From a virus, in IMG/VR virus record IMGVR_UViG_3300009149_010530, positions 1-29,372 of that record: a stretch of 29,372 nucleotides of DNA, one strand, 5' to 3'. A program made the translations under genes and the position numbers. Each line of letters opens with the position of its first letter. Positions within the stretch are counted from its first letter, which is position 1. Below the pieces are notes generated by a model. The model did no database searches. It was given only the letters and a program-made list of their open reading frames with translations, and had not been told where the DNA came from. Shown piece by piece: positions 4,968 to 23,028 of this stretch.

Positions 4968-7004
4968 ATGGCCCTACCCGACGTTGTGGATACCACCTTT
5001 GCTGACCCACTGCTGAAGGCAATTCGCGATGCCCGCCCACGAGGGATTCCGCACCGCATCCTCCCCTCGCTGCGGCAGCTTGGCTACTACAAAGGCATCC
5101 GTGACCTCCCCAAGGCTACGGGCGTGACCTTTGACGTTCTGCGCCGGATGTCGGGCACCCCGATAGTGCGGATGGTCGTAGACAAGCGCAAGACGCAGGC
5201 GGCGATGTACGCTCGCGAACCGCGTCACCGCCACGACGTAGGCTGCGAGTTCGTCCTGCGCGACACGGAGCGCAACCCCTCCCCCATCGAGCGCAAGGAG
5301 ATCGCCGAACTCAAGGAGCTTATCCTGCACGGCGGCTATCGCTGGAAGCGCGTCACCGACGGGCAGGTCGCTAGGTGGGATGGGCGTGGCGAGGAGAAGG
5401 CCCTGCGCTTTGACCAGCTCGTGCGAGTGCTCGTGGAGGACATGCTCGTCCTCGACGCCGCCTGCATACGCAAGGAGATGCCGCGCAAGGCCCGCGACCA
5501 CCCCGTCTATGAGGCCGACCCCGAGGCGCGGGAGCACGCCACAGACCACCCGCCGATCTGGTTCGCCCCGATAGACGGCGCGAGGATGCGGCGAGCCGAG
5601 CAGACGTACCGACTGCCGAAGGGCCAGGACGCCCTCGCCGCCCCGACTGGCGCGTTCGCAGGAGAGTACGAGCCGGAGATTCGGAAGGACCTCCGCACTG
5701 TGGCGTGGGTGGAACTCGGCGAGAGGAACGAGGTCCAGCGCGAGTTCAGTTGGGACGAAATCGGCTACCTCTCCCGCAACCCTCGTTCCGACCTCTGGAC
5801 GACGGGCTACGGGCGCAGCGAGCTAGAGTACCTCATCGAGATCATCACGGGCCTCGCCTGCGGGATCGGTTTCAACGTCCAGTTCTTCACGAACTCGCAC
5901 ATCCCCCCAGGCATACTCACCCTCGCTGGCGACTGGAAACAGGAGTACATCGAAGAGTTCCAGTCGGACATGATCGAGAACGTCGGCAGGTCTGGCAAGT
6001 GGCACAAGTTGCCGATCCTCTTCGGGGCGAGCGAAGACGCCAAGGCGAGCTTCATCACCCTGCGCGAGCAGGGCCGCCTTGATATGCACTGGGAGAAGTG
6101 GATCAGCTTCCTCGTCAACATCATCTGCGGCGTGTATCAGATGGCCCCGGAGGAGATCGGCTTCCAGGGCTTCAGGCAGCAGGGCCAGGCGATGCAGGAG
6201 GCGGACCCGGCCAGCAAGATAGTGCAGTCGTACGACACCGGCTTCGTGCCGCTGATGCTGGCGCTGGAGACCTTCCTCAACGAACAGATCATCGAGCCCA
6301 TTGACGACCGCTTCCAGCTTCGCTGGGTGAACCTGCGCAAGCTGGATCGGGAGAAGGAGCTTGCCCTCGGGACACAACGCCTCAATGCGGGGACGGCCAG
6401 CCTGAATCAAGTGCGCACCGAACTCAACGACCCCGAATGGCGCGACCCGCTTGACCCCGTATTCTGGAAGCGTTGCGAGAAGGCCGTTGTCAAACGTTGG
6501 CCCTTGGTGCGGCACGACAGGGAAGAGCGGGAGCGGCTGACCGCCGTCCTCTACGAGCAGACTGACGGCAAGTACTGCACCTGGCCCGACGCGCCCGGTA
6601 TGCCCGTTATCGTGAGCCAGTTGTATATGCGCGAGAAGGGCAGCTACTTTGAGGACATTGGTGGCGGAGGGGCTGGCGTTGGCGAACTGGGAGGGGAGGA
6701 GACTCAGGCCGGACCCTGGGGCAGTGTCCAGCCTGATATGCCGTCGGCACAGGGCGTCGAGGCACCCTCCCCTCCTGGTACACCACAGGAAGCCGAGCAA
6801 CCGCAGGGGCAGGCCGCAGGCGCGGCACCCGATGTGCGCAGACAACTGCTCGAACAGTTCCAGCCGCCGCCGCCGATGGCGAAGGCCGTCCAGGAGCAAA
6901 TGGAGGCTGACGGTGAGGGGCGAGGTATAATCGCACGGATCGGGCACCGATTGAGCAGCGCAGGCGCATGGCTGAGGAACAAGGCCAGATGGCGAAAGAC
7001 ATAG
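4968..7004 (+). CDS. Phage portal protein
   Basis: The portal forms the ring at one capsid vertex through which the terminase pumps DNA. The 678-residue length, position after the terminase and before a MuF-like protein, and the layout of mixed N-terminal domain, central segment (about residues 260-460, with TGYGRSELEYLI and MAPEEIGFQG motifs) and helical crown fit the HK97/SPP1-type portal family. The motif around residues 390-410 (IICGVYQMAPEEIG) is characteristic of such portals. The last 110 residues begin with a Gly/Pro/Gln-rich flexible linker (about 564-625) and end in a basic helix. ATG 4968 has GCGAGGCG just upstream; an in-frame ATG at 4941 would add nine residues. The end overlaps the next gene. 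Confidence 0.9.
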   Translation: MALPDVVDTTFADPLLKAIRDARPRGIPHRILPSLRQLGYYKGIRDLPKATGVTFDVLRRMSGTPIVRMVVDKRKTQAAMYAREPRHRHDVGCEFVLRDTERNPSPIERKEIAELKELILHGGYRWKRVTDGQVARWDGRGEEKALRFDQLVRVLVEDMLVLDAACIRKEMPRKARDHPVYEADPEAREHATDHPPIWFAPIDGARMRRAEQTYRLPKGQDALAAPTGAFAGEYEPEIRKDLRTVAWVELGERNEVQREFSWDEIGYLSRNPRSDLWTTGYGRSELEYLIEIITGLACGIGFNVQFFTNSHIPPGILTLAGDWKQEYIEEFQSDMIENVGRSGKWHKLPILFGASEDAKASFITLREQGRLDMHWEKWISFLVNIICGVYQMAPEEIGFQGFRQQGQAMQEADPASKIVQSYDTGFVPLMLALETFLNEQIIEPIDDRFQLRWVNLRKLDREKELALGTQRLNAGTASLNQVRTELNDPEWRDPLDPVFWKRCEKAVVKRWPLVRHDREERERLTAVLYEQTDGKYCTWPDAPGMPVIVSQLYMREKGSYFEDIGGGGAGVGELGGEETQAGPWGSVQPDMPSAQGVEAPSPPGTPQEAEQPQGQAAGAAPDVRRQLLEQFQPPPPMAKAVQEQMEADGEGRGIIARIGHRLSSAGAWLRNKARWRKT

Positions 7005-7978
7005 CCGACGACATAGCGACGGCCTTCGTTGACGAGATCGTCGCTGACGAGGTGCAGAAGGCCATCGAAGCAGGCGGCCCCGCTATGGCCGGCTTCTCAC
7101 CCGACGAGCTTGCGCTGGACGTGCGCGACGCACAGCGCGACGCCGAAGAAGTGCGCGACGAACTGCGGGCGATTGCGGTCGGCCTCTTCACCGGCTATGA
7201 CCGCGTGCATCGGTTCGGGCAAGCTGCCGTCGCGAGCGCTAGGACCAACCGCGAGAAGGCGGCGGTGCGAGGGGAGATCGCCGACGCGAGGGTGAAGACG
7301 GAGTATGCGCTGAAGGCGGCGATCCGACGGTCGTACAAGGGCATGTTCCAGAACGGGAAGGTCCTCGGCTACAACGTGCGCGGGCCGGACAAGGCCGAGC
7401 GCAAGTTCCTGGAGCGGCTGCGCCGCGAGGAGTTCGTCTTCGTCAAGCGGTTCCTGGACGACATCGAGCAGGGCCGCTGCAAGATGCCGGTGGAGGACCG
7501 CGCCGCGCTCTACGGGAACGCGGCGAACGAGGCGATGTGGTTCGGGTTCGTGTACGCCGACCAGTCGCCCGACAGGTACTTGCGATGGGTATTGAGCGAC
7601 GAGGAAGCCTGCCCCGACTGCCTGTACCTGGCGGGGCAGGGGATGGCGCAGGGCTTTGACAACCCGAACGCCGAGTTGCAGCTAGGCGGGCGCTGGGGGA
7701 ACGGTGTCTACTCGGCGCAGGAGCTGGCGCTGCTGGCCGTGGTGCCGCAATCGGGGAAGCTGCGGTGCACCACGCGGTGCCGGTGCCACTTGGAGGAGAC
7801 GGGCAAGCCGCGCCGTGCGCCGGTAGGCAAGGTGCAGAGGAAGCCGTTCAAGAGCCTAGCCCCGAAGCCGGTGCAGGCGCAGTACGAGAAGAGGCGCAAG
7901 CGGCAGGAGACGAAGCGGGTGCGGAGGGGCGGGACGGTTGTGAGGAAGGGCGTTCTATCCGACTGGCCCATTGTATGA
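6968..7978 (+). CDS. MuF/SPP1 gp7-like minor head protein
   Basis: A 336-residue head morphogenesis protein of the phage Mu gpF / SPP1 gp7 type, usually a few copies inside the capsid near the portal and sometimes ejected with the DNA. The N-terminal two thirds are helical. The diagnostic C-terminal part has a WVLSDEEACPDC motif (C215, C218), a GRWGNGVYSAQEL segment and a second cysteine/histidine group (C267, C271, C273, H274), probably binding zinc. The last 60 residues are Arg/Lys-rich. The start overlaps the portal end by 37 bases; an alternative ATG at 6989 gives a 16-base overlap. No toxin or enzyme domain is fused to it. Confidence 0.85.
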   Translation: MAEEQGQMAKDIADDIATAFVDEIVADEVQKAIEAGGPAMAGFSPDELALDVRDAQRDAEEVRDELRAIAVGLFTGYDRVHRFGQAAVASARTNREKAAVRGEIADARVKTEYALKAAIRRSYKGMFQNGKVLGYNVRGPDKAERKFLERLRREEFVFVKRFLDDIEQGRCKMPVEDRAALYGNAANEAMWFGFVYADQSPDRYLRWVLSDEEACPDCLYLAGQGMAQGFDNPNAELQLGGRWGNGVYSAQELALLAVVPQSGKLRCTTRCRCHLEETGKPRRAPVGKVQRKPFKSLAPKPVQAQYEKRRKRQETKRVRRGGTVVRKGVLSDWPIV

Positions 7979-8760: not shown

Positions 8761-9882
8761 ATGCCTGCGGTGCTGGTCGGGCAAACTGGGCGGGAGCGGA
8801 TGGCGAAGGCTGCCTCCTACCCTAGGCCCGCCTTCGTGGGTGCCACCATACCAGATTCGGCACGTGCGCGGTTCGCGCACATCGAAGGCCTAGCCGAGCA
8901 TCTGCATATGACGCTGTTGTACCTGCCCGAGGGTCCGCAGGACTGGAGCGAGGAACACGCTATCATTCGGGCAGTGCATCATGTGGCCCAACGCACACCC
9001 CCTTTGCGCTGTAAGATCACTGGCATCGGAATAGTGGGTCAAGAGCCAGTACTCGCGGCACTCGTAACCGTGGAGAACGGTGCCAAACTCCACGCGGACT
9101 TGGTGGGGACGATTGCTGACGGCGAACTCGACCGAGCGGTTGAGCGAACGTATGACTTCCTGCCGCACATCACTCTCTCGCATCAGCCTGCAGAGGAGGC
9201 GGCTGCTGCCGACTTGCGCAAGGTGCGGTGGACGACAAAGAGCATTACCCTGCAGTTCGGCAAGCGGGGTAAAGTGCATCGGTTTTACCTGAAAGGACGG
9301 CGCTCGAAGCTCCGTGTGCTCTTCAAGGCGGCGCGCCAGTTCGGCCTCTTCGAGGAAGCCAAGCATCCCCGCTACCCCAAGGGCCACCCGAAGGGCGGGC
9401 GGTTCATGCTGACCGGGAGGAGGGCGGAGGGCGGGGAGGCACCGACGGCAGCGGCGACGGAGGCAGAGTCCTACGAGGCCCCCGGCAAGTTCCGCAATGT
9501 GCGCGGCTTTGCTGACCGCAAGGGGTATCCTAAGCCAGACCGCTATCGCGTAATCTTTGAGGGATGGACAGCTATCTATGTGAGCGATACCGGGGCTGAG
9601 TACCACCTCCAGATTGAGCCCCAACTGTGGCCGAGGGAGACTGCGGGACGGTATGGCAGATGGGTTGATGTCCTATCGCAGGGAGCAACGCATCGGAACG
9701 TGCTGTGGGAGAAATTGCCCAGCATCAAACAGGGGATAGAGAAGATAGTCGGCTTACTATCTGCCGACGCAGACAGGGCCGAGCGTGAGCGTGGCTTCTC
9801 GCTTCGGCCCCAATCGCGGTCTTCCCCGTTCCGTAAGGCGCTACTATCCTTCGGAGGTCCCCGTGCTGCAAGTGCGCCGTGA
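8761..9882 (+). CDS. 2H phosphoesterase / 2'-5' RNA ligase-like protein
   Basis: A 373-residue protein whose N-terminal 185 residues have the two catalytic HxT motifs of the 2H phosphoesterase superfamily: HMT at 49-51 (LHMTLLYL) and HIT at 136-138 (FLPHITLSH). Members open 2',3'-cyclic phosphates or hydrolyse 2'-5' bonds, and the phage member Acb1 destroys cyclic nucleotide immune signals. After a basic linker comes KHPR at 201-204 and GGRF at 212-215, shared with the next gene. The C-terminal domain (about 240-350, with aromatic residues) is of unknown type. The ATG at 8761 follows GGGAG; the stop overlaps the next gene by 20 bases. The substrate is unknown. Domain call is strong; biological role is inference. 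Confidence 0.75.
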   Translation: MPAVLVGQTGRERMAKAASYPRPAFVGATIPDSARARFAHIEGLAEHLHMTLLYLPEGPQDWSEEHAIIRAVHHVAQRTPPLRCKITGIGIVGQEPVLAALVTVENGAKLHADLVGTIADGELDRAVERTYDFLPHITLSHQPAEEAAAADLRKVRWTTKSITLQFGKRGKVHRFYLKGRRSKLRVLFKAARQFGLFEEAKHPRYPKGHPKGGRFMLTGRRAEGGEAPTAAATEAESYEAPGKFRNVRGFADRKGYPKPDRYRVIFEGWTAIYVSDTGAEYHLQIEPQLWPRETAGRYGRWVDVLSQGATHRNVLWEKLPSIKQGIEKIVGLLSADADRAERERGFSLRPQSRSSPFRKALLSFGGPRAASAP

Positions 9883-11596
9883 CAATCCATCGGCCCCTCT
9901 CCTAGCCTTCGGCCTCAGCAAGGCTGGTGCCCAGCAGGGGTTGCCGTGGGAGGAGGGCAAGCACCCGCGTCAGACCGGAGGGCGTTTCGGCGAGAAGCCC
10001 TCGGCGGAGGCGGCCCCCGCGCAGAGGCAGTTTCAGTTTGCCTTCGCGATGCCGCCAACTGGCAGCCTCTCCAAGCGCGTCAAGCTGATAGCCCGGATGT
10101 GCGGCCTCTTTGAGCCGATGGCCCTCTGGGGACTGAGCGACGAGGAGGTCGTGCAGGCCAAGCGGGAGGCGCAGGCTGCCAACGATGAAGTCGGCGAGAT
10201 GATGCTGGACATCCATCGCAACGTGCGGGCGCGGATGTCGCCGGAGCAGGTGAAGGACGCGCACAACGTTGTGCGGGCGATGGTGGCGCAAGCGGTTGCG
10301 AAGCGACGCCCAGCGGAGGCCCCGAAGAAGAAGGCTGTTGCGCTGGACGAGCGGCTGCTGGCACTGGGGATTAGTGCCGACCACCTAGCACCTGCGGCGA
10401 TGCTGCAAGCTAGAGCCGTGGCAAAGGCCGTCATCCGCACCCCGATGGAGGGCGGTGTAGTCGCCTGGGACAAGGTTCCGGTCGGGGCGTCCATCTGGGT
10501 GACGGTCACAAAGCCCGGCCCGCTCAAAGGCCGCAAGCTGCAACTGACAAAGCGCCCCGACCATCAGTTTGCGGTCACGGGCGGGACGCCCTTCGTCTCG
10601 CACAAGGGCAAGTTCTCTGGCGAGGAAGCCGAGAAGCGCGGGGCGGCCTACAAGCACATGACGGTCGCCCCCGGCGGTCGCGCGGGCTACATGACCGCCA
10701 AGGAGCGCAAGGCCCGCGAGGAGCGCGAGAAGGTCAAGCAGGCCCAGGCTGGCAAGCGCAAGCGGATCCGACAGCTAGGGCAGGAGAAGGGGGAAGCTGC
10801 ACGTGGGGCGCGAGAGGCATTTCTGGCGGCCACGGGCGCGAATCCCGACTACTTGACGGAGCAAGAGGTCGCGAACGCTACGGGTGCCCTCCAACAGCAG
10901 GCGGAGGATGCTGGGTACGAGAAGACCACGGCGCGGCAGTGGGCAAGCAGCGTGATGTCGGCGGTGGCCCGTGCGCAGAACAAAGCCGACGACAAGCGGG
11001 CGAAGGCCGTTGCGCGGCTGGCCCGCCGCGTCCGCCAGCGGATGGAGGACCTCGGCGAGGACTTTGAGGCGGCGCGCGATGCAGCCCGACAGGAGATAGA
11101 GGTGCCGACCTACCTCGACCCCGCAATGCTGCCCCCGCCGCCGGTGCCCAAGCGCGACGCTACCGAGCAGGAGATAGAGTTGCAGGTGGCCGACGCCGTT
11201 GAGAGGGCGGTGGAGGAGGCGACCGCTCGCCCCGCCGAGGTTGCGCTGCCAGCGGCCCCCGTCGAAGAGGCGGCCCTGGAGGCGGGATGGACGCCGCCGC
11301 CGTCGGTGTATGCTGAGGAGTTCGCAGAACCCGAACACGTGGGCATCTACTCTGAGGAGGAGCGCCGCTATGCGCTTGTCCCTGCGGGTGAGCGACGCGA
11401 GGTGCCGCCGCAGGCCGAAGCTCCCGCCGCAGTGGGCGCAGCCGAGGTGGTAGAGGAGCGCAGGGAAGAACCTGCCCCCGAGCCAGCGGAACGCGAAATC
11501 GAGCTTGAGCGGACGGAGAAGTTGCGCGAGGAAGCGGAGGCCGAAGCGCCTCCCGTCGCGGGCATGACGATGCGGGAGATTATGGGGCGCGTTTGA
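9863..11596 (+). CDS. N-terminal part of a giant polyvalent-type protein, ended by TGA
   Basis: A 577-residue product from a GTG at 9863 with GGAGGT (9853-9858) just upstream; an earlier GTG at 9785 lacks this signal. A KHPR...GGRF motif lies at 33-42, echoing the 2H protein. Next come a helical region, a beta-rich segment (about 220-290) with a VTGGTPFVSHKG loop, a long basic and charged coiled coil (about 290-420) and an acidic Ala/Glu/Pro-rich tail ending GMTMREIMGRV. The stop TGA at 11594-11596 is followed, in the same frame, by open coding sequence that runs into the helicase at 11774. The likeliest original state is one protein of about 1,415 residues. Confidence 0.7.
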   Translation: MLQVRRDNPSAPLLAFGLSKAGAQQGLPWEEGKHPRQTGGRFGEKPSAEAAPAQRQFQFAFAMPPTGSLSKRVKLIARMCGLFEPMALWGLSDEEVVQAKREAQAANDEVGEMMLDIHRNVRARMSPEQVKDAHNVVRAMVAQAVAKRRPAEAPKKKAVALDERLLALGISADHLAPAAMLQARAVAKAVIRTPMEGGVVAWDKVPVGASIWVTVTKPGPLKGRKLQLTKRPDHQFAVTGGTPFVSHKGKFSGEEAEKRGAAYKHMTVAPGGRAGYMTAKERKAREEREKVKQAQAGKRKRIRQLGQEKGEAARGAREAFLAATGANPDYLTEQEVANATGALQQQAEDAGYEKTTARQWASSVMSAVARAQNKADDKRAKAVARLARRVRQRMEDLGEDFEAARDAARQEIEVPTYLDPAMLPPPPVPKRDATEQEIELQVADAVERAVEEATARPAEVALPAAPVEEAALEAGWTPPPSVYAEEFAEPEHVGIYSEEERRYALVPAGERREVPPQAEAPAAVGAAEVVEERREEPAPEPAEREIELERTEKLREEAEAEAPPVAGMTMREIMGRV

Positions 11597-11773
11597 TCGC
11601 GGCGACGGGCGAAGGGCGAGGAAGACTGGCAGCTTGAGAGCGAAGAAGCACTTGGCGAACTCCTGGGCAGCTATGAGGGTTTCCAGCGGGCGGCCCTGGA
11701 GCAGCGCAAGCTAAGAGCCGGGCTGGAGAAGCTCCCGGAACTGGAGGGCCGCCCCACTGCCGCGCTTGAACAG

Positions 11774-14110
11774 TTGACGGTCGAAGCGGAGAACGTCAGC
11801 GAGCAGGAGCTGGCGGAGGCGATGCGCCGCTATGAGGCGGCCCCGCCGGAGCAGCGCACGGATCGTCTCTATCAGGCATTGTCCGACCACTGGAACGAGG
11901 ATCTCGGCAACACGCTGGCGGGCCACATGGACGAGGGGGCGAGCAGTGCCCTGACCGGCCTCGTCGGTGACTTCCTGGGGCGGCGCGTGAGCGTCGGAAG
12001 GCTCGTGCGTGCCCTCGCCCCTGCGGGAGCGGCAGCCGCGCTCGCCTACGACCTGCACGAACGCTTGTCGGAAGCCGACTATGCGCAGGTCGCCGAGCGT
12101 GTGGAGACCTGGAACTCTGAGAACCAGGAGAAGACCGAGCGCAAGGCATTGGAGGCGAACGCGCAACTCCTCGACGAGTACAAGCTCATCGAGCAGCACC
12201 AGGACAAGGGCCTTCTGAGCGAGGAGGGCGCGGAGGCGCTGAAGGCGGAGAACCTGCTTCGCCGCCGCCGCAACCTGGGTGTTGGCCTCGGCTCGCTGGA
12301 GGCATCGGCGAACTTCCTCGGCGCAATGCAGATGGCGATGCGCGGTAGTGACCAGCAGGTGACGCTCATCTGCGGCGCGAGGAAGGCGGACGCGCAGGAG
12401 CGGCTTGACGCGCTGAAGCTGAAGACGGGGAAGAACGTGCAGCTTGTCAACAACCCGGCGACGAACCAGTGGGAGATACGCACGACGGCCCTGGGCTTGC
12501 AGCGGTTCATAAACTACGAGGAGAAGCTGAAGACGCGCAACGCCGAATGGCAGGGCGCCAAGAACAATGAGGCGGAGGTCGCAGAGGCGGACGCGCCACC
12601 GGGTTTCAAGCGCAAGGTCGAGGGCGAACCACTCCGCCTGCGCAAGGAGCAGCGCAACGACATAGACTGGCTGCTGAAGGCTGGCGGCGGACTTGTCGCC
12701 AGAACTACGGGGGCGGGCAAGACCCTCACCGCACTAGGGTTTGCCGCCCACAAGCTGAAGGAAGACCCCGAACACAAGGCCCTGATGGTTGTGCCGAAGG
12801 GCCAGGTCGGACAGTGGATCGCTGAGGCGAAGAAGTTCACCGACCTGCCCATCTACGAGGTGCCCGAAGGAGCGACGAAGGAGGGCCGCGCAGACCTTTA
12901 CTACCAGGGTCCCGGCGTCTACATCGCGAGTCACCGCGACGCGAGCTTTGACACTAGCGCGATTGAGAACGGGGGCTTCGGAACCGCCTGCGTTGACGAA
13001 CCACAGCTCTTGAAGAGCCGCGCATCCGCCCGACTTGGGGCGCAGGCGCAACGGCTGTTCAAGATGCCCTTCGAGCACCGGATTGCACTGACGGCGACGC
13101 CCGCGCGCGAGAAGCCCGTGGAGGCCTACAACATCGTCAACTGGACGAACCCCGGCGAACTCGGCTATCGGACGCGCTTCGAGCGTGCCTTCGGCGGCTT
13201 CGGGGCGGGCACCAACGCTCAGGACGCCGGGCTGGCGAAGCTCCTGCGTGACGAGATCGAGCCTTACGTCTCAAGCTCGGCCCTGGAGAAGCGAAGCTAC
13301 GAGGTTGACCATCGGCACCACGCGAGCAGCATTTCGCAGGCGCAGAAGAAGCGCGAGGGAGAGATCGAGGCTCGGCGCGAGGAAGTCATAGCGAGCTTCC
13401 GTGGGCGGGGCGGTAAGCGCAAGGCCCTGGCGGAGATGGAGCGCCTTCAGCGCGTGAACGTGGATGACGGGGATGCAGCCACGAACGTAAAGATCGCGGA
13501 CTTCCTCTCAGAGGTCAAGGCAAGCGATCCGCTGGCGAAGCATGTGGTCTTCGTGTCGGGACCGGAGCAGCGCCGGACGGTGGTGCAAGCACTGGCCGAT
13601 GCAGGGTACAAGCGTAGTCAGATCAAGAACATCGCGAAGACAAGCGGCGTCAAGGCGGCGCAGATCAGCCAGCGCAAGCGGCAGTGGGGCGAGGACCCGA
13701 ACTGCCCGTTCATCATCATAGACGCGAGCACCTCGGCGGGACACAACCTGCAAGCCGCGAGCCACGTCCACATCATGGGCGCGCCGGATGATGCCGCCCA
13801 GATGTTACAGGCCGAAGGGCGCGTGGCGCGCGATCCGCGCGAGGGAGACGTGGGCGTCCACACCTACAAGACGGACAGCCCGTTTGAGGCCGAGGAGTGG
13901 CATGTGCTGGACGACCAGATGAAGCTGCTCAATGCGACGGTGCCCGCGCTGCTGGCGCAGGCGGGGCTGAATAAGTCGGCGAGGGCGCTTATGCGGTTCA
14001 CTGGGCGACACCGGGCCTACCTGCGGTATCATCCCGTGGTGAACGTACCTGTGAATGGGCACGGGACGCGCCTATCGTTCGGAGAGAACAATGCCGCAGG
14101 TACTTCGTAA
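11774..14110 (+). CDS. SNF2-like superfamily 2 helicase, downstream part of the giant protein
   Basis: The frame is open from 11597, immediately after the upstream TGA; the TTG at 11774 is only the first formal start and has no ribosome binding site. Numbered from there (778 residues), the first 280 are helical. The helicase core has motif I TTGAGKT at 311-317, motif Ia VVPKGQ at 339-344, motif II DEPQ at 408-411 in place of DEAH or DEGH, motif III LTATPAR at 439-445, motif V near 654-667 and motif VI QAEGRVARDP at 681-690. An insertion of charged helices lies between the two RecA lobes. All catalytic residues appear intact, including the motif II glutamate. It probably moves on or remodels DNA, perhaps after ejection. 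Confidence 0.8.
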   Translation: MTVEAENVSEQELAEAMRRYEAAPPEQRTDRLYQALSDHWNEDLGNTLAGHMDEGASSALTGLVGDFLGRRVSVGRLVRALAPAGAAAALAYDLHERLSEADYAQVAERVETWNSENQEKTERKALEANAQLLDEYKLIEQHQDKGLLSEEGAEALKAENLLRRRRNLGVGLGSLEASANFLGAMQMAMRGSDQQVTLICGARKADAQERLDALKLKTGKNVQLVNNPATNQWEIRTTALGLQRFINYEEKLKTRNAEWQGAKNNEAEVAEADAPPGFKRKVEGEPLRLRKEQRNDIDWLLKAGGGLVARTTGAGKTLTALGFAAHKLKEDPEHKALMVVPKGQVGQWIAEAKKFTDLPIYEVPEGATKEGRADLYYQGPGVYIASHRDASFDTSAIENGGFGTACVDEPQLLKSRASARLGAQAQRLFKMPFEHRIALTATPAREKPVEAYNIVNWTNPGELGYRTRFERAFGGFGAGTNAQDAGLAKLLRDEIEPYVSSSALEKRSYEVDHRHHASSISQAQKKREGEIEARREEVIASFRGRGGKRKALAEMERLQRVNVDDGDAATNVKIADFLSEVKASDPLAKHVVFVSGPEQRRTVVQALADAGYKRSQIKNIAKTSGVKAAQISQRKRQWGEDPNCPFIIIDASTSAGHNLQAASHVHIMGAPDDAAQMLQAEGRVARDPREGDVGVHTYKTDSPFEAEEWHVLDDQMKLLNATVPALLAQAGLNKSARALMRFTGRHRAYLRYHPVVNVPVNGHGTRLSFGENNAAGTS

Positions 14111-14291
14111 GCAACTCGCCGCGACCGACGTTGCCCTCCGCCGCCAGGTAGAGAGGCTGAAGGCCTTGGCGTCGAAGGCGCACAACGAGTATAAGGCCGC
14201 CAAGACCAGCGGCGAGGCCCGCGACGCACTTGAGCGGTATGAGCAGTGTCAGGAAGTGCTGGGGCGGATACGATTCGGAGGGCTATCATAG
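14091..14291 (+). CDS. Small coiled-coil protein
   Basis: A 66-residue protein, almost entirely predicted helix with heptad-like spacing (LRKQLAATDVALRRQVERL and onward), consistent with a short coiled coil. GGAGAG lies directly before the ATG at 14091, which overlaps the helicase by 20 bases. The stop TAG shares its last base with the GTG of the next gene. Being locked between two giant helicase genes suggests it acts with them, perhaps as an assembly or packaging partner, but nothing in the sequence proves this. Confidence 0.6.
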   Translation: MPQVLRKQLAATDVALRRQVERLKALASKAHNEYKAAKTSGEARDALERYEQCQEVLGRIRFGGLS

Positions 14292-17200
14292 TGGCCGTAG
14301 TCGGCCTCGCACGAACTAGGCGGCCCCAGGGCGGCAAGCAGTCGCGGGTCCCGTGGCCGATCCTGCGGCCCGAGGACTGTGCGCACCTTGATATGCACGA
14401 ACTGCTGGTGCGCGGTGACGACGGGAAGGTCTACAAGGCCGCCGTCTGCGCCCTCTGCGGTGCGGTGCAGGATGTCCAGTCCCTACGGCACCGCAACGGC
14501 CCGCCGCGTACTATGCTGATGAGCAAGGCGGCGGGCGACAGTATAGACTGGCGCGGCAATCCGCTGTACCGCTGGATAACGATTCACCCGCAGGGCAAGG
14601 AGGAACAGGGCTACCCCGTCCTGCTGCGCCTGGACAAGGAGGGCAGCAGCAGTGGGCACATCGTCGGCGGGGCGGGTGGGGCGCTGAACTATCGGCGCAT
14701 AAGCCGCCTGAAGACGAAGCGCCAGTACCAGGTTGAGGCGCGGGCGCGGCGGGAAGAGAAAAAAGGAGAGAGGGAAGCACGCGAGGCCGCAATGTCCGAG
14801 GCGGAACTTGGCGAACGTGCCGCCGCCCGCACGGAGGTCGCGCAGGCACGGACGGAGGCGACGCACGAATATCTGAAGACCGTCGCCGAAGTCCAGGGCT
14901 GGGGGCCGGTGGCACTCTCCGACGAGGACAAGACGCGGATGTCGGAAGACAGTGTGCGCCGGATAGAGGCGGCACGCGAACGCTGGCAGGAACGGGCGGC
15001 GCGCGAGCTTGACGAGAAGATCAAGGACCTCGTGATAGGACAGCACGACCGCGAGATCGCCGAGGCCCTGGACGGTACAAACCCCGAGGAGTTGATGTCC
15101 GACGAGGTGGACGACTCGGGCCTTGGCTACGCGGCACTGTTGGCGAACCTGGCCGAGGCGCACGGTATGGGTCCCGATGCCGCACGGCTACGCGCTCGCT
15201 TCACGACCACCAGGGCGTTTGAGGCGGCGGAGGAGGGCGGCTACATTGAGGACGCGCAGAAGGCAAGAGACTACGTAGACATGCTCCAGGTGGGTGCCGC
15301 CGAGGCGCGCACGGAGGACAAGCCCTTCCGCGAGGAGGGCCTGCACCGCCCCGAGTTCTCCAGCGAGGTAGCCGACCCCGCGCAGGCGCGTCGCCTGCTC
15401 GTGGCGCGCGAGCAGTGGAAGCAGCACGAACGCGAACTGAAGGCGAAGGAGCGCGGCATTGAGGCCCTGGCTCCCGGCAGCATCGAGATACCCGCTGGCG
15501 CGGCCCTTGTTGAGACCACGGAACTGTCGGACGAACAGGCAATGAAGCGCGTGACTATGGGCCTGCAAGACCGCGCGCGGCTAGTTGCGGCAGACGAACT
15601 GCTGTCGGAGGTAGAGGCGGTCGAGGAGCGCACGGGCAGCATCGAGCAGCACATACACGAGGGCCACACGCGCCAGTTGGAGGAGATCGGCCAAGCTACA
15701 TTCCACCAGCCGGTCGGGATGGGCCGCGAGACCGTAGACGTTCTTGGGCCGGACGCCTCCGCCGCGATCTTCAGTGAACTGCTGAAGGAGGAAATGAACG
15801 GCGATACGGAGGCGGCGCGCGAGGCCCTCCGTGAGCATCACATAAGGACACAGGCGCAGAAGGCGAAAGATGCCGTTGCCGAGGGCAAGCAACGGCTTGC
15901 CGCTGCGGAAGATGCCGTGAAGGACCTCCCCGAACTTGGCGACGATGGTGTGCAATCGCTGCTGGCAATCGAGGCGGCGAACGACAAGCGCCGAGAGGAG
16001 CTGGAGGAGGCCAAGCGCGTAGTGGGCGTTGCCCTCGGTCGCCTGGAAATGCTGGGCAGCATGAACGCGGCCCTGGGCGAAGAACATGAGCGGATTGACG
16101 TTGCCCTTGGTGAACTGGGCGGCAAGCAGGCATACCAGATCGCCGCCGCGCTCGGACTTGAGGAAGGCGAGTACGAGGTGCAGTCGGACGGCCCGCACAA
16201 GTACCTGCTGTTGGAGGAGAAGGGCTGGCGGAAGTTGATAGAACCGCCCGACCCAGAGCAGGGCGAACTGTACGAGGCGGCCATCGGCATCAAGAAGGGC
16301 GAGGCCGACCAAGAGGGTTGGCTGCCGGATGGTATCATGGGCCGCCCGTCGGATGCTTACTACGATGATGTCGCGATCCAGCGGGCCTATGAGTGGGACG
16401 CGACGCCGGAGTTCAAGGGGAAGACCGGCGAGGAACTGGGCGGTGCCATTCGCGATTATGCGGGCAACATGCTCGCCAACGATGGGGCAGGCAGCGTCGG
16501 CAGCCTGCGCTTCAGGATGCTATCGCCGGAGTTTCAGGCCGACCATCTGGACGACGCGCAGGTGGGCGAATACCAGCGTGCGATGATGGGGTTGTTCCCC
16601 GCCTCGGGCGCTGACGACGACTGGGAGAGCCTGGCGCAGGAGTTGGTCGCGCCCATACGCGAGCGCGAGGACCCCGAACACGCCGCCTTGGACAGTCAGC
16701 GCATATCGGTTCCGCAGAGTTACGACGCGATGCACCGGGCACTCAACGAGGTCCCTGGGGGCAAGGTGGCATTCAAGCCGCTGGCTCACTTCGGAGTTGA
16801 GGATGCCGCGCTTCTCAGAGACTACTTCTGGGAGCATCTGACGGAGGAGAAGCGCCCGGTGGCCGCCGAGACACGAGAACGCCGTGCGGCAACGACGGCG
16901 GAGGGGGAGAAGGTCATCGCGGGGCAGGCCACGATCTTCGGCGAGGTCGAACCCGTCACACGCGGCAAGACCGAAGCCTTTCAGGAGCGTGTCGCGGCTG
17001 AGGAGGTCGCTGGTGCGGAGAACGCGTGGACGCGCTACGTCAAGGCGCAAGGCAGTCCGCAGGCGGCCTATCATTCCCTCCAAGACTTGGTGAAGGGCGA
17101 ACTGGTTGAGAAGTTCGCCACGCAGTACGGGCGCGAAACGGGCAGGGAGGTCAAGGGTGGCCGCGCGGACATCGCCAACCCGCTCAAGCATATCATCGGC

Positions 17201-19171
17201 CTCATGCCGAAGGAAACCTTGGAGCGCGTGCTGGACGCGGACAATGCCACATTGCGGAAGATGTACGACGGACTGCGGAGAAGGGATGCCGAGGGCCGCT
17301 ACGCTCCCGGCGAAGTGAGCGACCTCGCCCAGCGCATACTCGCCAAGGCCAGGAAGATGCAGCTTACACTCTTCGCAGAGCGACCGCCCTCCACACAGCA
17401 CTTCACCATCGGCAAGACGGCGGAGGCCCAGGCGCGGCGGGTGTGGTCACAGGTGGCCGCGACCTTCGATCCCGACCATCCCGTAGAGATTCCGCAGGAC
17501 GTGAGCATGTCGGGGGATTACGTCCACCAACAGCGGGCGATCAGGATGCTTGAGCGCGTCAAGCGTTTCGGCCTGCACTATTCTACTGGCAGCGGCAAGA
17601 GCCTCATCGGGATCGGCGGCTTCACAGACCTCGCGGCGCAGGGCAAGGTCAAACGCGGCCTCTTCATCGTGCCGCCGAAGATCGTGGCGCAGTTCGGCGG
17701 CGAGATGAATCGCTTCGTGGAGCCGGGCAAGTTCCGTTACTTCGCGGACCCTTCGGCCAGCGCAGACGAACGGCGCCAGATGTACGCCGACCCAGAGGCG
17801 CAGATGGTTGCGGTCAGTCATCAGGCTTGGCGCGAGGACGTGACGTGGGCCGTTGCGCAGAGCAAGTTCGGGGGAGACACCAACGAAGCCTCGCATTTCC
17901 TGCTCACTGGCCCTGCCGACGAGAGGCAGGATGCCGTCAACAAGGCGCTGGAGGAACAGGGCTGGCAGTACGGTTTCGCGATGTGCGACGAAGCACACGA
18001 CGCTCTGAACCGCAAGGGCAAGCCCAACTCGCGCCTGGCGAACGTGACAGATGCGACGACGAGTGGCGCGGAGTACTTCATCACAGCAACCGCAACGCAG
18101 GTCAAGAACGATGCCTCCGAACTCTACGATGCACTCTGCAAGGTCCGACCGGACAAGTTCAAGCCCGAGGGCTGGGAGCAGTTCCACAGGCGCTATGGCC
18201 TGGATACTCGCGCTTCGCGCGACGCCCTTCAGCGGCTGGTCATGCCCTACTTCTACGCCAAGGACGTAGATACCGGCGTGAAGAGGACGAAGGTGCAGCG
18301 ACCGATTGCACTCTCCGACTGGCAGAAGGCTGAATACGGGAAGGCACTGGACGCGTATCAACGTGCGCGACGCGCAGCCGAAGGAAGCAGAGAGGGCAGG
18401 GATGCCCTGGCAGAGCTTGTTGGGCCGAAGGGACTTGAGGGCCTGGACGAGGCCGCAAAGGTGCGCAAGTTGGGCGATGCTGGCAAGGCCCTTGGGTTCA
18501 CCCGCGACCGAGCCATTGAGCGCGTCGTGATGCACGCGCCCGCGGAGCACAACCCCCGGATACAGGACGTTATCGAGTTGGCCCAGAGCAAGCGCGACGC
18601 CGATGATGACGGCGGACAGGTGCCTGGCCTCGTGTTCACGCAGAGCCTAGAGAGCGTGGACTTGCTGCGCGAGGCATTGGAGGGGAAGGGCTTCCGGGTT
18701 GGCACCATCACGGGCGGGAAGAACGGCGAGGAAAGCGAGAATGTGAGGGCCGGTTTCAACGCAGACCAGCATCGAAACATCACCGAACTGTCTGAGCAGG
18801 CGGCGGCGAGGCGCAAGGCGGCGAAGTACGACATCCTAGTCTGCTCCGAGGCAGGGTCCGCCGGGCTGAATATGGAGCGCGGCAGGTGGATGTATCACTA
18901 TGACCAGCCCTGGACGGCGAAGACCCTGCAACAGCGGGAAGGGCGCGAGGACCGGCTGACGCAGAGGTGGGGCGGGATCGAGATTCACACCGCGAAGACG
19001 GCAACGCCCTTTGAGGAGCGCCGCCACCAGATAGTGCGCGACAAGGCCGACCTGATGAACACCTTCATGGAGGACACGGAGAACATTGACGACACCGGCC
19101 TCGCCGCAGACATTCGCAACGCGCGGTCGGAGGCGTTGTCGGGTGCGATGATGGGAGTCGCCGCAGGATGA
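14291..19171 (+). CDS. Giant polyvalent-type protein with C-terminal SNF2-like helicase
   Basis: A 1,626-residue protein, the largest here. The GTG at 14291 has GGAGGG upstream and couples to the previous stop; an ATG at 14246 is inside that gene and lacks a signal. Residues 30-56 hold a probable zinc site (C30, H32, C53, C56). A beta-rich segment with a GHIVGGAGGALNY loop (about 105-145) is followed by some 900 residues of mostly charged helices. The last third is a superfamily 2 helicase: YSTGSGKS at 1097-1104, DEAH at 1233-1236, a TATAT motif III, and QQREGREDR at 1547-1555. The order zinc/beta/coiled coil/helicase parallels the preceding split protein. It resembles phage 'polyvalent proteins' delivered with DNA; no methylase or nuclease domain is evident. 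Confidence 0.85.
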   Translation: MAVVGLARTRRPQGGKQSRVPWPILRPEDCAHLDMHELLVRGDDGKVYKAAVCALCGAVQDVQSLRHRNGPPRTMLMSKAAGDSIDWRGNPLYRWITIHPQGKEEQGYPVLLRLDKEGSSSGHIVGGAGGALNYRRISRLKTKRQYQVEARARREEKKGEREAREAAMSEAELGERAAARTEVAQARTEATHEYLKTVAEVQGWGPVALSDEDKTRMSEDSVRRIEAARERWQERAARELDEKIKDLVIGQHDREIAEALDGTNPEELMSDEVDDSGLGYAALLANLAEAHGMGPDAARLRARFTTTRAFEAAEEGGYIEDAQKARDYVDMLQVGAAEARTEDKPFREEGLHRPEFSSEVADPAQARRLLVAREQWKQHERELKAKERGIEALAPGSIEIPAGAALVETTELSDEQAMKRVTMGLQDRARLVAADELLSEVEAVEERTGSIEQHIHEGHTRQLEEIGQATFHQPVGMGRETVDVLGPDASAAIFSELLKEEMNGDTEAAREALREHHIRTQAQKAKDAVAEGKQRLAAAEDAVKDLPELGDDGVQSLLAIEAANDKRREELEEAKRVVGVALGRLEMLGSMNAALGEEHERIDVALGELGGKQAYQIAAALGLEEGEYEVQSDGPHKYLLLEEKGWRKLIEPPDPEQGELYEAAIGIKKGEADQEGWLPDGIMGRPSDAYYDDVAIQRAYEWDATPEFKGKTGEELGGAIRDYAGNMLANDGAGSVGSLRFRMLSPEFQADHLDDAQVGEYQRAMMGLFPASGADDDWESLAQELVAPIREREDPEHAALDSQRISVPQSYDAMHRALNEVPGGKVAFKPLAHFGVEDAALLRDYFWEHLTEEKRPVAAETRERRAATTAEGEKVIAGQATIFGEVEPVTRGKTEAFQERVAAEEVAGAENAWTRYVKAQGSPQAAYHSLQDLVKGELVEKFATQYGRETGREVKGGRADIANPLKHIIGLMPKETLERVLDADNATLRKMYDGLRRRDAEGRYAPGEVSDLAQRILAKARKMQLTLFAERPPSTQHFTIGKTAEAQARRVWSQVAATFDPDHPVEIPQDVSMSGDYVHQQRAIRMLERVKRFGLHYSTGSGKSLIGIGGFTDLAAQGKVKRGLFIVPPKIVAQFGGEMNRFVEPGKFRYFADPSASADERRQMYADPEAQMVAVSHQAWREDVTWAVAQSKFGGDTNEASHFLLTGPADERQDAVNKALEEQGWQYGFAMCDEAHDALNRKGKPNSRLANVTDATTSGAEYFITATATQVKNDASELYDALCKVRPDKFKPEGWEQFHRRYGLDTRASRDALQRLVMPYFYAKDVDTGVKRTKVQRPIALSDWQKAEYGKALDAYQRARRAAEGSREGRDALAELVGPKGLEGLDEAAKVRKLGDAGKALGFTRDRAIERVVMHAPAEHNPRIQDVIELAQSKRDADDDGGQVPGLVFTQSLESVDLLREALEGKGFRVGTITGGKNGEESENVRAGFNADQHRNITELSEQAAARRKAAKYDILVCSEAGSAGLNMERGRWMYHYDQPWTAKTLQQREGREDRLTQRWGGIEIHTAKTATPFEERRHQIVRDKADLMNTFMEDTENIDDTGLAADIRNARSEALSGAMMGVAAG

Positions 19172-19494
19172 ATCTGCGCGGTCAACTGAGAGGGTTACTC
19201 GCGAGGTGTGAGCGCGGACTCTCCGAGTGCGACGCGCTTGACGCCCAGCTTCTGGCCGCCGCAGACCTGATGGAGAAGCAGCGGGGCGAGGAGCTTGAGC
19301 GGCAGGGGAAGGCCGTGCGGGAAGAGGGCGATGCGCACCGACTGCGCGCCGCCGAGGAAATGTACTCGGCCTCGCTCGTGGAACGGGCGCGGGCGCGACG
19401 GCTTGCCCGCCACCTGCGCAACCAGCAGACAGATAGGGAACAACAACAGGGGCTTCGCGGTGAAGCCCTGATTGCAAGTCCAAGGAGACGATAA
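19168..19494 (+). CDS. Small charged helical protein
   Basis: A 108-residue protein overlapping the giant helicase stop as ATGA. It is Arg/Glu/Ala-rich and almost wholly helical, with a likely coiled coil at about 25-95, and two cysteines near the start (residues 14 and 21). It ends with a basic tail. The stop TAA shares a base with the next ATG. No family is recognised. Its helical, charged nature matches the small coiled-coil gene before the giant helicase, so the two may be helpers that bracket it. Confidence 0.6.
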   Translation: MNLRGQLRGLLARCERGLSECDALDAQLLAAADLMEKQRGEELERQGKAVREEGDAHRLRAAEEMYSASLVERARARRLARHLRNQQTDREQQQGLRGEALIASPRRR

Positions 19495-19802: not shown

Positions 19803-21500
19803 ATGCCACAACCTGATTGGGTCTTCTACGTCCCGATGGCGAAGGCCACCGTGGACGACGACGGCAGGATATGGGTCGAGGGCATTGCCTCCGACGAGTC
19901 GGTTGACCTGGAGAACGAGATCATCAAGGGCAGCGGCCTCACCGATACCATACAACTCCTGGAGACGCGCGGGATATTCAACTGGGATCACGGCAAGACC
20001 CCTGTGGGGCGCATAACGAAGGCGGGGCTCATTGACCGCGCAGTCGCCGAGAAGTACTTCCCGGAGATAAAGGACCAGCTCGGCGGGGTGCTGGTCGGCG
20101 ACAAGGCCTTCTACCTAAAGGGCTGGGTTGACCCTCCCTCCGAGGACGAGGTGCCGCACGAGGACCTCATCAGCACCCGACACGCCCTCAAGCAGGGATA
20201 CCCGCTCGGCTTCTCGCTTCAGGGTGGGCGCGTCGCGCAGGGGCAGACGCAAGCACCCGACGGCACTGTCCACCCCGCAACCGAACGCGCCTTCATCACC
20301 AAGGTCGCCATTGCCCCGTTTCCGATCAATACGCACAGCTACGCACGCATCGCGAAGTCTCTCAGCGAGGCCGTCTCCTGCGCCGAGGGCGGGTGCGACC
20401 TCCCGGTGGTGGTCGTCGCGAAGGCGCTCATCGCGGGCGCGGGAACCGAACATGCCGACTTCGGTGGCGGTCGGGCGATGACGCCGGAGAGCCTGCACGG
20501 TGCGCTGGAAACTACAACCTGGGGCTGTCCCAAGTGCGGCAAGGAGACGGTGGGGCGCGTTGGGACCGCGCCGACTTGCCCGGAATGTCACGTCAAGATG
20601 GTCGCTCAGAAGGTCACGAAGGCAGTAGACGCACATACCGCTGGCGGCACTTCCGCCGCCCAAGACAAAGGAGCTGACAAGATGGCAAGGCAGAAGGGCA
20701 GGATTCTCAAAAGTCTGCTCTCCGACTTGGCGGCAATCTTCACGAAGGCCGCCAAGATAGACGACGAGGAGGAGGGCGTGGAGGAGGAAGTGGAGGACGT
20801 AGAGGAGGAGCTTAGCGAAGTATCGGAACTCACTCAGGGGGAGGCGGAGGGGGAAGACGAGGAACCCCCAACTGACGAGGAGCTGGAAGAAATGCTGGCA
20901 GAACCAGGCACACCCGAACTTGAGGAGGAGGGCGAGGAGGAAGAGCAGCGGCCTCCCCGCAAGGTCAGGAAGGCCGTAGACGAGACCGCCGAGGGCGAGC
21001 AGGAGGAGGAGGAGCAGGAGCAGGAGGCGGAGGTCGAGGACGATGAGGAAGAGGTGAGCAAGTCCGTGAGCGAGTTCCTCGCGGAGGATGAAGACCTCGG
21101 CCCCGTCATCGAGGCGGAACCTGCGTTTCGCGCTGTCCTCGAGGAGTTCGACACCCGCCAGCAGGAGACGGCCCAGGACCTTATGAAGGCCATCACCACG
21201 CTGGCCGAGGGCCTGACCGGGCGGATGGACGCACTGGAGGAGCACTTGGGTGCCCGTGAGCATGAGGAGGGCAGCAAGCCACAACCTGGCGGCTACCGGC
21301 CTGTGACCAAGGGCTTGCCGGGCGGGGAGACCCCCGATCTCGACCCGGAGGAGGTCTCCAGCAAGATCACAAAGGCGGTCAAGGCCCGGCGGATCAGTGC
21401 GGAGGAGGCAACGGTTCTACGCAAGGCAGTGGCAAACGGCACTGATATGGCGCTGGCCCGTGCCGGTGCCATCTTCCGCAAGCTGGACGACGACGACTAG
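19803..21500 (+). CDS. Prohead protease fused to scaffold
   Basis: A 565-residue protein. Residues 1-200 form a capsid maturation protease of the HK97/caudovirus type: candidate catalytic His63 (FNWDHGKTPVG) and Ser138 (LGFSLQGG), then THSYARI at 177-183. Residues 207-241 match a 35-residue segment of the capsid protein. A zinc ribbon follows (C242, C245, C259, C262). From about 300 on the chain is scaffold-like: a long Glu/Asp-rich stretch (about 318-425), then helices and a basic-helical C-terminus. Scaffold and protease in one chain is common in phages; cleaving itself and the scaffold would empty the shell. An internal start at 20682 could also give scaffold alone. Confidence 0.85.
   Translation: MPQPDWVFYVPMAKATVDDDGRIWVEGIASDESVDLENEIIKGSGLTDTIQLLETRGIFNWDHGKTPVGRITKAGLIDRAVAEKYFPEIKDQLGGVLVGDKAFYLKGWVDPPSEDEVPHEDLISTRHALKQGYPLGFSLQGGRVAQGQTQAPDGTVHPATERAFITKVAIAPFPINTHSYARIAKSLSEAVSCAEGGCDLPVVVVAKALIAGAGTEHADFGGGRAMTPESLHGALETTTWGCPKCGKETVGRVGTAPTCPECHVKMVAQKVTKAVDAHTAGGTSAAQDKGADKMARQKGRILKSLLSDLAAIFTKAAKIDDEEEGVEEEVEDVEEELSEVSELTQGEAEGEDEEPPTDEELEEMLAEPGTPELEEEGEEEEQRPPRKVRKAVDETAEGEQEEEEQEQEAEVEDDEEEVSKSVSEFLAEDEDLGPVIEAEPAFRAVLEEFDTRQQETAQDLMKAITTLAEGLTGRMDALEEHLGAREHEEGSKPQPGGYRPVTKGLPGGETPDLDPEEVSSKITKAVKARRISAEEATVLRKAVANGTDMALARAGAIFRKLDDDD
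20682..21500 (+). CDS. Possible separately translated scaffold (internal start)
   Basis: Inside the protease gene and in the same frame, AAAGGAG (20668-20674) sits 7 bases before an ATG at 20682 (residue 294). Translation from here gives a 272-residue protein lacking protease and zinc ribbon but keeping the acidic stretch and the C-terminal helices. The arrangement resembles lambda C/Nu3, where a scaffold is made from an internal start in larger amounts than the protease. The signal is strong for a position inside a gene, though chance is possible in purine-rich sequence. Confidence 0.5.
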   Translation: MARQKGRILKSLLSDLAAIFTKAAKIDDEEEGVEEEVEDVEEELSEVSELTQGEAEGEDEEPPTDEELEEMLAEPGTPELEEEGEEEEQRPPRKVRKAVDETAEGEQEEEEQEQEAEVEDDEEEVSKSVSEFLAEDEDLGPVIEAEPAFRAVLEEFDTRQQETAQDLMKAITTLAEGLTGRMDALEEHLGAREHEEGSKPQPGGYRPVTKGLPGGETPDLDPEEVSSKITKAVKARRISAEEATVLRKAVANGTDMALARAGAIFRKLDDDD

Positions 21501-21606: not shown

Positions 21607-23028
21607 ATGGACAACGTTGTTGCGGCAGACTATCCCGAATGGTTCTTGCCCGCACTTGAGGGGCAGGAACCCAACGTCGGCGACTTGCTCAAGGCCATAA
21701 CCGCAGGGACGGGCACCGATTCGTCCGCATTCACGGGCGGTCGGGCGCTCATTCCTGAGTCCTTGGAGCAGACTCTCCTTGATACTCTGTGGGGAGAGAA
21801 GCACATCAAGCTCTTCAAGGCTTTGAAAAAGTCAGCCGTCCGAGCTACTGTTGACGAATTCGACATACGGACGGAGTACGGTTCTGAGTGGGGCGTGGCA
21901 GTCGGCGAGACCGCCAACCCCTCGCTCGTGGACCCAACGATTCGGCGCGAGACCGCGCTGGTCAAGTACTACAGGGACCGGCGCGAGGTCAGCCACGTTG
22001 CCACGGTCGTACGGATGATTGAGGATCCAATGACGGTTCAGGAAGTGTCCGGGACCAGGCGGATCCTTGGCCGTCTTGAGCAGGACCTCTTCACCGGCGA
22101 CGACACCGTGTTCCCGAATCGCATCACGGGCCTGCTGCCCATCACTGTCGCAGAGGGCGGCGAACTCGTGAGCGACGCGCACGGAACCGCCGTCAACACG
22201 CAGGACCGCTTCCAGGAACTTGCCGGGGTCGTATATGACGAGGGCGGCACACTGACCGACGTGTACCACTCGTCCATGTGTCAGGCGGACATTGACGCCG
22301 CGCTGGAAGTCAATCAGCGCATCGTCATCCCGGTGCAGGGCACCGACGGCAGGATTCGCGTGGGCGCAAGTCAGCGGGCCTTGGCGACGGTTCACGGCGA
22401 CGTGAACTTTGAGCCCGACCGCTTCATCAGGTGCGGCTGGCGCATGAGCGCACCCGATGTAAGTGCTGGGCCAGACGCGCCGGGTGTGCCGACGGTCAAC
22501 GCGCTTACCGGCAATGCCGGGGCGATCCACGACGCGGCCAACCTTCCGCCCGGTGACTACTTCGTCCGGGTGAGCAACATCAACGAGACCGGCGAGAGTG
22601 CTGCTTCTGTGGCCCAGGCGGTAACGCTGGTCGCGGGCGCGCGCATTCTCATCAACATCACCTCCGGCGATGCGGACACGACCGGCTACCGCGTCTACCT
22701 GTCCGAGGTGGACGCTGCCGACGCCACCGATTGCCGCTTCCACGCGGACTTCGCGATCACCGACGGCGTTGGCGACGAGTTGACGGTTGACGGCCACTGG
22801 GTGACGGGCACGACCACGATGCACCTCATCTCTGGTGAGGCTGCGGACATGGCGATTGACTGGCGACAGCTTCTGCCGATGACGAAGCTCGACCTGGCGA
22901 TCACCGGGCCGGTCATCCCGTTCCTGCTCAACCTATACGGTTATCTCCGGGTGCCGAAACCGAATTGGCACGCGGCGATTATCAACGTCCTGCCGTCCAA
23001 CGTGGCTGGTTGGGCGCCGGTCGGATAG
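21607..23028 (+). CDS. Major capsid protein, HK97 fold
   Basis: A 473-residue shell protein with a strong AGGAGGT ribosome binding site just upstream of its ATG. Residues 29-63 carry an FTGGRALIPESL segment as seen near the N-terminus of many HK97-fold capsids, also matched in the protease. Residues 70-285 and 400-473 have the features of the fold: VDEFDIRTEYGSEWGVAVGE, LEQDLFTG, and a closing KLDLAITGPVIPFLLNLYGYLRV segment typical of C-terminal capsid strands. Residues about 288-395 (PGVPTV, PPGDYFVRVSNINETGES, TTGYRVYLS) look like an inserted fibronectin III/Ig-like domain. Location after protease and scaffold, and the strong start signal, support the call. The insertion probably projects from the shell surface. 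Confidence 0.88.
   Translation: MDNVVAADYPEWFLPALEGQEPNVGDLLKAITAGTGTDSSAFTGGRALIPESLEQTLLDTLWGEKHIKLFKALKKSAVRATVDEFDIRTEYGSEWGVAVGETANPSLVDPTIRRETALVKYYRDRREVSHVATVVRMIEDPMTVQEVSGTRRILGRLEQDLFTGDDTVFPNRITGLLPITVAEGGELVSDAHGTAVNTQDRFQELAGVVYDEGGTLTDVYHSSMCQADIDAALEVNQRIVIPVQGTDGRIRVGASQRALATVHGDVNFEPDRFIRCGWRMSAPDVSAGPDAPGVPTVNALTGNAGAIHDAANLPPGDYFVRVSNINETGESAASVAQAVTLVAGARILINITSGDADTTGYRVYLSEVDAADATDCRFHADFAITDGVGDELTVDGHWVTGTTTMHLISGEAADMAIDWRQLLPMTKLDLAITGPVIPFLLNLYGYLRVPKPNWHAAIINVLPSNVAGWAPVG

Follow-up and report, generated by a model that had tools for sequence, protein, structure and literature searches.

Adjacent giant SNF2-type proteins among the head genes of a virus fragment as probable methylase-free polyvalent proteins

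A 29,372-base virus fragment from IMG/VR (IMGVR_UViG_3300009149_010530, 64% GC), referred to here as the window, encodes among its late genes two adjacent giant proteins, which are probably paralogous polyvalent SNF2 translocases that would be carried in the virion, ejected with the phage DNA and active on the incoming DNA. These two proteins were named P1 and P2, and P1 is not to be confused with phage P1, the phage that carries DarB. The polyvalent protein concept is that of Iyer et al. 2017 (PMC5512222). The late genes of the window run in one direction, in the order terminase, portal, MuF-like protein, 2H phosphoesterase, P1, P2, protease and capsid protein, followed by further late genes. 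The record is a single metagenome-derived sequence in which P1 carries a TGA, and this was counted against the preferred explanation. The relevant features are as follows, relatives being given by their locus numbers.

6968..7978, + strand: MuF-like minor head protein (50% and 40% identity to the L008 and L003 proteins)
8761..9882, + strand: 2H phosphoesterase protein (Pfam 2_5_RNA_ligase2, 3.5e-10)
9863-14110, + strand: whole P1 locus, 1415 positions; GTG start at 9863, GGAGG upstream
9863..11593, + strand: P1 N-terminal piece, 577 codons ahead of the in-frame TGA
10496..10588, + strand: candidate N-terminal glycine-loop domain of P1 (weak match)
11594..11596, + strand: in-frame TGA inside P1, with the same codon-position GC on both sides
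11597..14110, + strand: P1 C-terminal piece, 837 codons in the frame of the N-terminal piece, with Pfam and HMM matches
about 11777-12511, + strand: P1 middle helical domain (P2-family HMM)
about 12635-13933, + strand: P1 SNF2-type motor (Pfam SNF2-rel_dom)
14091..14291, + strand: 66-aa helical protein, overlapping the P1 end and the P2 start
14291..19171, + strand: P2, giant SNF2-type protein of 1626 aa; GTG start at 14291, GGAGG upstream
about 14567-14695, + strand: P2 N-terminal WITV/GGAGG domain
about 15506-16240, + strand: P2 middle helical domain
about 17519-19060, + strand: P2 SNF2 motor
19168..19494, + strand: 108-aa helical protein, overlapping the P2 stop, in the place of the conserved small partner
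19803..21500, + strand: head maturation protease (phrog_1028, E 0.002; homologous to annotated prohead proteases)
21607..23028, + strand: major capsid protein (phrog_752, 1.9e-52)

The MuF-like protein had no match in Pfam and fell into one cluster with a Mecenats66 protein annotated as minor head protein. The 2H gene overlaps the P1 start by 20 nt, and its product shares with P1 the motif F....HPR...GGRF, which was found in 8 matches against 0.2 expected from shuffles. As a general loading signal this motif was set aside: it is enriched over shuffles, yet its 8 matches come from few loci.

Domains, paralogy and the interruption of P1

A sequence-only reading of this DNA had described two adjacent giant loci, each ending in a helicase domain, and both were confirmed, at 1415 positions including the TGA for P1 and 1626 aa for P2, with Pfam matches and SF2 motifs in each. 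In P2, Helicase_C (2.4e-9) and ResIII (6.6e-5) were matched and the motifs STGSGKS, CDEA, TATAT and QQREGR were present, their residues being conserved throughout the P2 family, while the C-terminal piece of P1 matched SNF2-rel_dom (E 4.8e-16), ResIII and Helicase_C and carried TTGAGKT, VDEP, LTATPA and QAEGRVAR. The AlphaFold model of the C-terminal half of P2 (pLDDT 84) retrieved the motors of INO80, ISWI, CHD1 and Snf2h in Foldseek, with E about 1e-15. On this predicted fold, and with the SNF2-rel_dom match of P1, the helicase of both proteins is more exactly a SNF2-family dsDNA translocase. The best PHROGs family of both was phrog_62, 'DNA helicase' (1.1e-66 and 1.2e-43), a model that differs from what is described here in naming a helicase only, without the N-terminal domain, the head-gene position or the small partner.

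The N-terminal half of P2 was also predicted with a confident fold (pLDDT 84) that includes a long helical region, for which neither PDB nor BFVD offered a confident structural match, and the best VIA Z, 6.8, lies in the range that helical models reach by chance; this was counted against the preferred explanation. The WITV domain was considered as a module shared with other effectors, and among the examined loci it was found in P2 and P1 proteins only; in annotated phages, it occurred mostly in the same helicases. The claim that methylase and nuclease domains are absent from both proteins held, none being detected by Pfam.

The two proteins had been proposed to be diverged paralogues, and profile comparison bore this out. 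The P2-family HMM matched the middle domain and motor of the window P1 (E 3e-20), and matched the P1 proteins of L009 (4.7e-32) and L088 (2.5e-36) over the N-terminal domain, the middle domain and the motor, while about 430 positions of P2 between the middle domain and the motor were missing from P1. These similarities, which are above chance, support P1 as a diverged, shorter paralogue of P2. The proposal of a common N-terminal glycine loop stood in part: the domain was clear in the P1 homologues of L009 and L088 (E about 4e-8), and in the window P1 the single-sequence match was weak (E 0.012-0.04) and, taken alone, suggestive.

It is quite improbable that P1 is instead a DarB-type methylase-helicase that lost its methylase. 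P1 does occupy the place where many relatives carry a DarB-like gene, and its motor also matched the methylase-helicase of PHB04 (E 5.6e-7). However, the middle domain is common to P1 and P2, the WITV domain is found in both P1 homologues, and the motor tree set P1 and P2 apart from the DarB type at 100/100, although the P1 branches are very long and the exact place of P1 in the tree is therefore unsure. A decayed DarB was thus disfavoured on the shared domains and the motor tree.

P1 looks like one gene that is broken, misread or recoded, as judged from its coding pattern and relatives. GC by codon position across 11597-11773 is as before the TGA, an HMM of the L009 and L088 P1 proteins matched the C-terminal piece at 2.7e-36, and homology to these relatives resumes at residues 30-38 of the C-terminal piece (nt about 11684-11711), ahead of the earliest ATG, GTG or TTG of the frame after the TGA, which stands at 11774. 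Since homology begins ahead of any start codon and codon-position GC is unchanged, a single gene is the simplest reading, with mutation or record error as the simplest cause of the interruption and read-through as the alternative. An altered genetic code was ruled against, as TGA terminates several other genes of the window. Two separate genes, with the TGA as a true stop, are an unlikely arrangement: the stop is in the record, and translation from the TTG at 11774 could give a 778-aa protein with the motor and a portion of the middle domain, but the homology that precedes this codon and the L009 homologue, a single uninterrupted frame of 1109 aa, speak against it.

The description of the tandem pair as unusual was correct in a narrower sense. 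A giant SNF2 protein beside P2 is common, a DarB-like methylase-helicase lying upstream of P2 in 36 loci; pairs in which both motors are methylase-free came from just three genomes, those of the window, L009 and L080/L088, in short-pattern searches that distant cases can escape. In L009 and L080, further giant proteins lie between P1 and P2. Single-sequence searches with the P1 C-terminal piece in IMG/VR and annotated phages returned no relative, and profile searches returned P1 relatives in the L009 and L080 genomes only. Long 7-kb matches, first suspected of containing inteins, proved mostly to be the neighbouring methylase-helicase.

Position, distribution and slot of the P2 family

By sequence comparison, P2 belongs, over its full length, to a widespread family. 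Relatives with 27-30% identity over the full length are found in Bordetella phage PHB04, Thermus phages Cumys and Lalka and Morganella phage Mecenats66, and phage phiMa carries another member. In IMG/VR, the best 80 of 124 relatives were taken, with identities up to 47%, and a bacterial genome set contributed 18 contigs. The locus counts that follow include this IMG/VR share and many near-copies, so they are not independent. Where the markers were seen, the protease gene lay downstream of P2 and on its strand in 88 of 89 loci, at a median distance of 583 bp, the capsid gene was found in 86 of 87, and a MuF-like gene lay upstream in 67 of 68. Two exceptions were L097, with its head genes on the opposite strand, and Lalka27a, in which P2 sits among tail and baseplate genes.

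A capsid-centred set was made up of 65 relatives that carry this capsid and have 7 kb or more of upstream sequence. No part of the capsid alignment spanning all clades was conserved enough for searching, and two narrower alignments were therefore used. P2 was near the capsid gene in 48 of the 65, elsewhere in the record in 3 and absent from 14. The placement of P2 away from the head genes in these three records and in Lalka27a was counted against the preferred explanation. The capsid tree required about 9 changes in P2, at least 6 of them forced by well-supported branches. Since phages matched by capsid can lack P2, it is, on these comparisons, accessory in phages with this capsid.

The place of P1 and P2 is also held by other proteins. 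In L008, the closest relative by P2 among the best 80 of 124, an 826-aa protein stands in the place of P1, has the first 150 residues of P1 in common with it (37% identity over P1 residues 18-147) and continues into a region that weakly matches LPD1 and carries the motif HELGH. The P1 protein of L088 has fused RelA_SpoT and topoisomerase IB domains. Among the P2-lacking members of the 65, L129, L131 and L134 carry LPD1 proteins upstream, one of them with a methyltransferase, and the remaining inspected P2-lacking loci (some of those lacking P2 were inspected) had no upstream frame that large. More distant capsid relatives without P2 carry a Mom-InPase protein (L195), another SNF2 protein (L191) and an unrecognised giant (L201). 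Judging from these predicted domains, the slot around P1 and P2 in relatives is one of interchangeable polyvalent proteins, including DarB-like methylase-helicases, LPD1 proteins, Mom proteins and RelA/SpoT-topoisomerase fusions.

The small gene linked to P2

In relatives, a helical protein of about 80 aa is encoded after P2. Its HMM found the gene directly behind P2 in 59 of 103 P2 loci and farther away in 18. Among the capsid-matched records, it was present in 49 of the 51 with P2 and in none of the 14 without it (Fisher p 2e-12, relatedness ignored). This linkage of P2 to a small gene is new here. The family had no PHROGs match and weak Pfam matches, none of them convincing, and the small partner gene of P2 seems to be previously undescribed. 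In the window, the 108-aa protein has 38% identity to its L008 counterpart, and its score against the small-partner HMM was not significant (E 0.012). The 66-aa protein, also not significant against this HMM (E 0.036), is possibly the small partner of P1.

The arrangement resembles that of Ulx in phage P1, a small gene likewise linked to a giant SNF2 protein, which accompanies DarB and aids its localisation (PMC9024508, PMC11437467).

Virion cargo and the alternatives

The region had been read as a polyvalent cassette, and this agrees with the conserved late position, the slot-sharing, the accessory distribution and the DnaB-type helicases found elsewhere in the three closest relatives having one. 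Homology between the two proteins, the lack of which would have spoken against that reading, was detectable, and no tie to replication genes was found. Like the polyvalent proteins of Iyer et al., P1 and P2 are giant multidomain proteins of a late cassette with a SNF2 motor, P2 combining in 1626 aa the WITV domain, a helical middle and the motor, and their neighbours and slot-mates bear LPD1, MTase, 2H, RelA/SpoT, topoisomerase and Mom domains, with exchange and fusion of modules visible in L088, L008 and the LPD1 and Mom slot-mates. Unlike them, P1 and P2 lack a methylase or any other recognised catalytic domain apart from the motor, and their N-terminal domain was placed by no model (Pfam and PHROGs in both cases). 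The DarB and DarB-like proteins of phages P1, JC1 and Lalka are similar in being giant late proteins with a SNF2 motor and in the accompanying small gene (Ulx for DarB), and differ in the N6-adenine methylase fused before the motor, which Pfam found in neither P1 nor P2, whose motors form a separate group. P1 and P2 are probably a methylase-free version of a known polyvalent or DarB strategy.

DarB was established in the virion of phage P1, where a 30-residue N-terminal signal carries a reporter to the capsid (PMC9024508), and the DarB-like protein of JC1 was detected in the virion by mass spectrometry (PMC9144972). By analogy with these findings, we infer that P1 and P2 are loaded into the capsid, are ejected and act on the DNA that enters, most likely as an anti-defence measure. 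P1 and P2, each with an N-terminal WITV/GGAGG domain, a long helical region and a dsDNA-translocating SNF2-type ATPase, would be produced late, alongside the capsid genes, and probably loaded into the prohead ahead of DNA packaging, for which the small helical protein beside P2 would be a likely loading partner or chaperone. Ejected together with the phage DNA, the motors may travel along it as it enters the new host, dislodging proteins bound to it or restriction complexes and managing without the methylase of DarB-type proteins. As P1 contains the TGA and has probably been broken, misread or recoded, P2 is the motor likeliest to work. Against this explanation it was counted that no virion proteome of a P2-carrying phage was found in the papers examined and that no capsid-targeting signal was identified.

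A more specific version can be offered only tentatively. P2 and its small partner may form a self-contained, methylase-independent virion-borne motor, in which the small protein would load the motor and the motor would pull in or strip the entering genome; the pair would be gained and lost as a unit, and a few phages would double the motor, as P1 and P2.

A role in the producing cell, such as the removal of bound proteins from concatemeric DNA, help to the terminase or an internal head-assembly function, with no delivery to the next host, is improbable. Such a role would suit the operon region shared with the portal, protease and capsid genes, and a scaffold-like function would fit the long helical N-terminal region. 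However, P2 is absent from 14 of 65 same-capsid relatives, and the tree requires at least 6 changes, which indicates that P2 is not required for assembly there, and in some of the relatives lacking it the slot is filled by other polyvalent proteins. Least likely, and very doubtful, is a replication, repair or transcription motor lying by chance among late genes: SNF2-family similarity at the motor does include RapA, but the position is kept across distant relatives, L008, L009 and L080 encode a DnaB-type helicase elsewhere, which together disfavour P2 as a replicative helicase, and the replication helicases of Mecenats66 and Lalka are separate proteins (PMC9503643, PMC11437467).

Should virions carry P2, a SNF2 motor without a methylase would suffice as the cargo delivered to each new cell. 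This would separate translocation from methylation in anti-restriction of the DarB type, making the role of the motor directly testable, and the tightly linked small gene would be a candidate for the factor that loads giant capsid proteins.

Inteins and homing-endonuclease ORFs in P2-family motors

In three related loci, L008 (the closest relative by P2, the 1626-aa giant SNF2-type protein of the window), L080 and L105, the P2-family motors were found to be interrupted by inteins (Pfam PF14890), with an insertion point within the Walker A motif in L008 and two inteins in L080, one of them immediately ahead of motif II.

Intein-bearing P2-family genes (PF14890)
L008 9953-15436
L080 9884-17455
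L105 8570-14800

The intein-coding stretch of L080 P2 also contains homing-endonuclease ORFs (HNH_3; LAGLIDADG_2), one on the opposite strand and the other in a different frame, and the P2 reading frame runs uninterrupted across them.

Homing-endonuclease ORFs in L080 P2 (HNH_3/LAGLIDADG_2 pair)
13608-14630 (-)
15288-16226 (+)

A motif shared upstream of P2

Several different proteins encoded upstream of P2 share the motif [FW]....HPR...G[QRKHE]F (8 matches versus 0.2 in shuffles), found in window 8761-9882 (2H phosphoesterase protein) and 9863-11593 (N-terminal piece of P1, the diverged paralogue of P2), and in L008, L009, L073 and L080.

Small proteins behind P2 and P1

A second family of small proteins was also observed after P2 (L017, L021, L035, L036, L045, L058, L093). 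Its members are short, appear to carry a signal peptide and contain repeats of the type CY.I.D.DAR.YCLA...CYSI....LR..CLAEVR. P1 too is followed by small helical ORFs, giving the impression of a separate partner for each of the giant proteins.

Small helical ORFs following P1
window 14091-14291
L080 2883-3155
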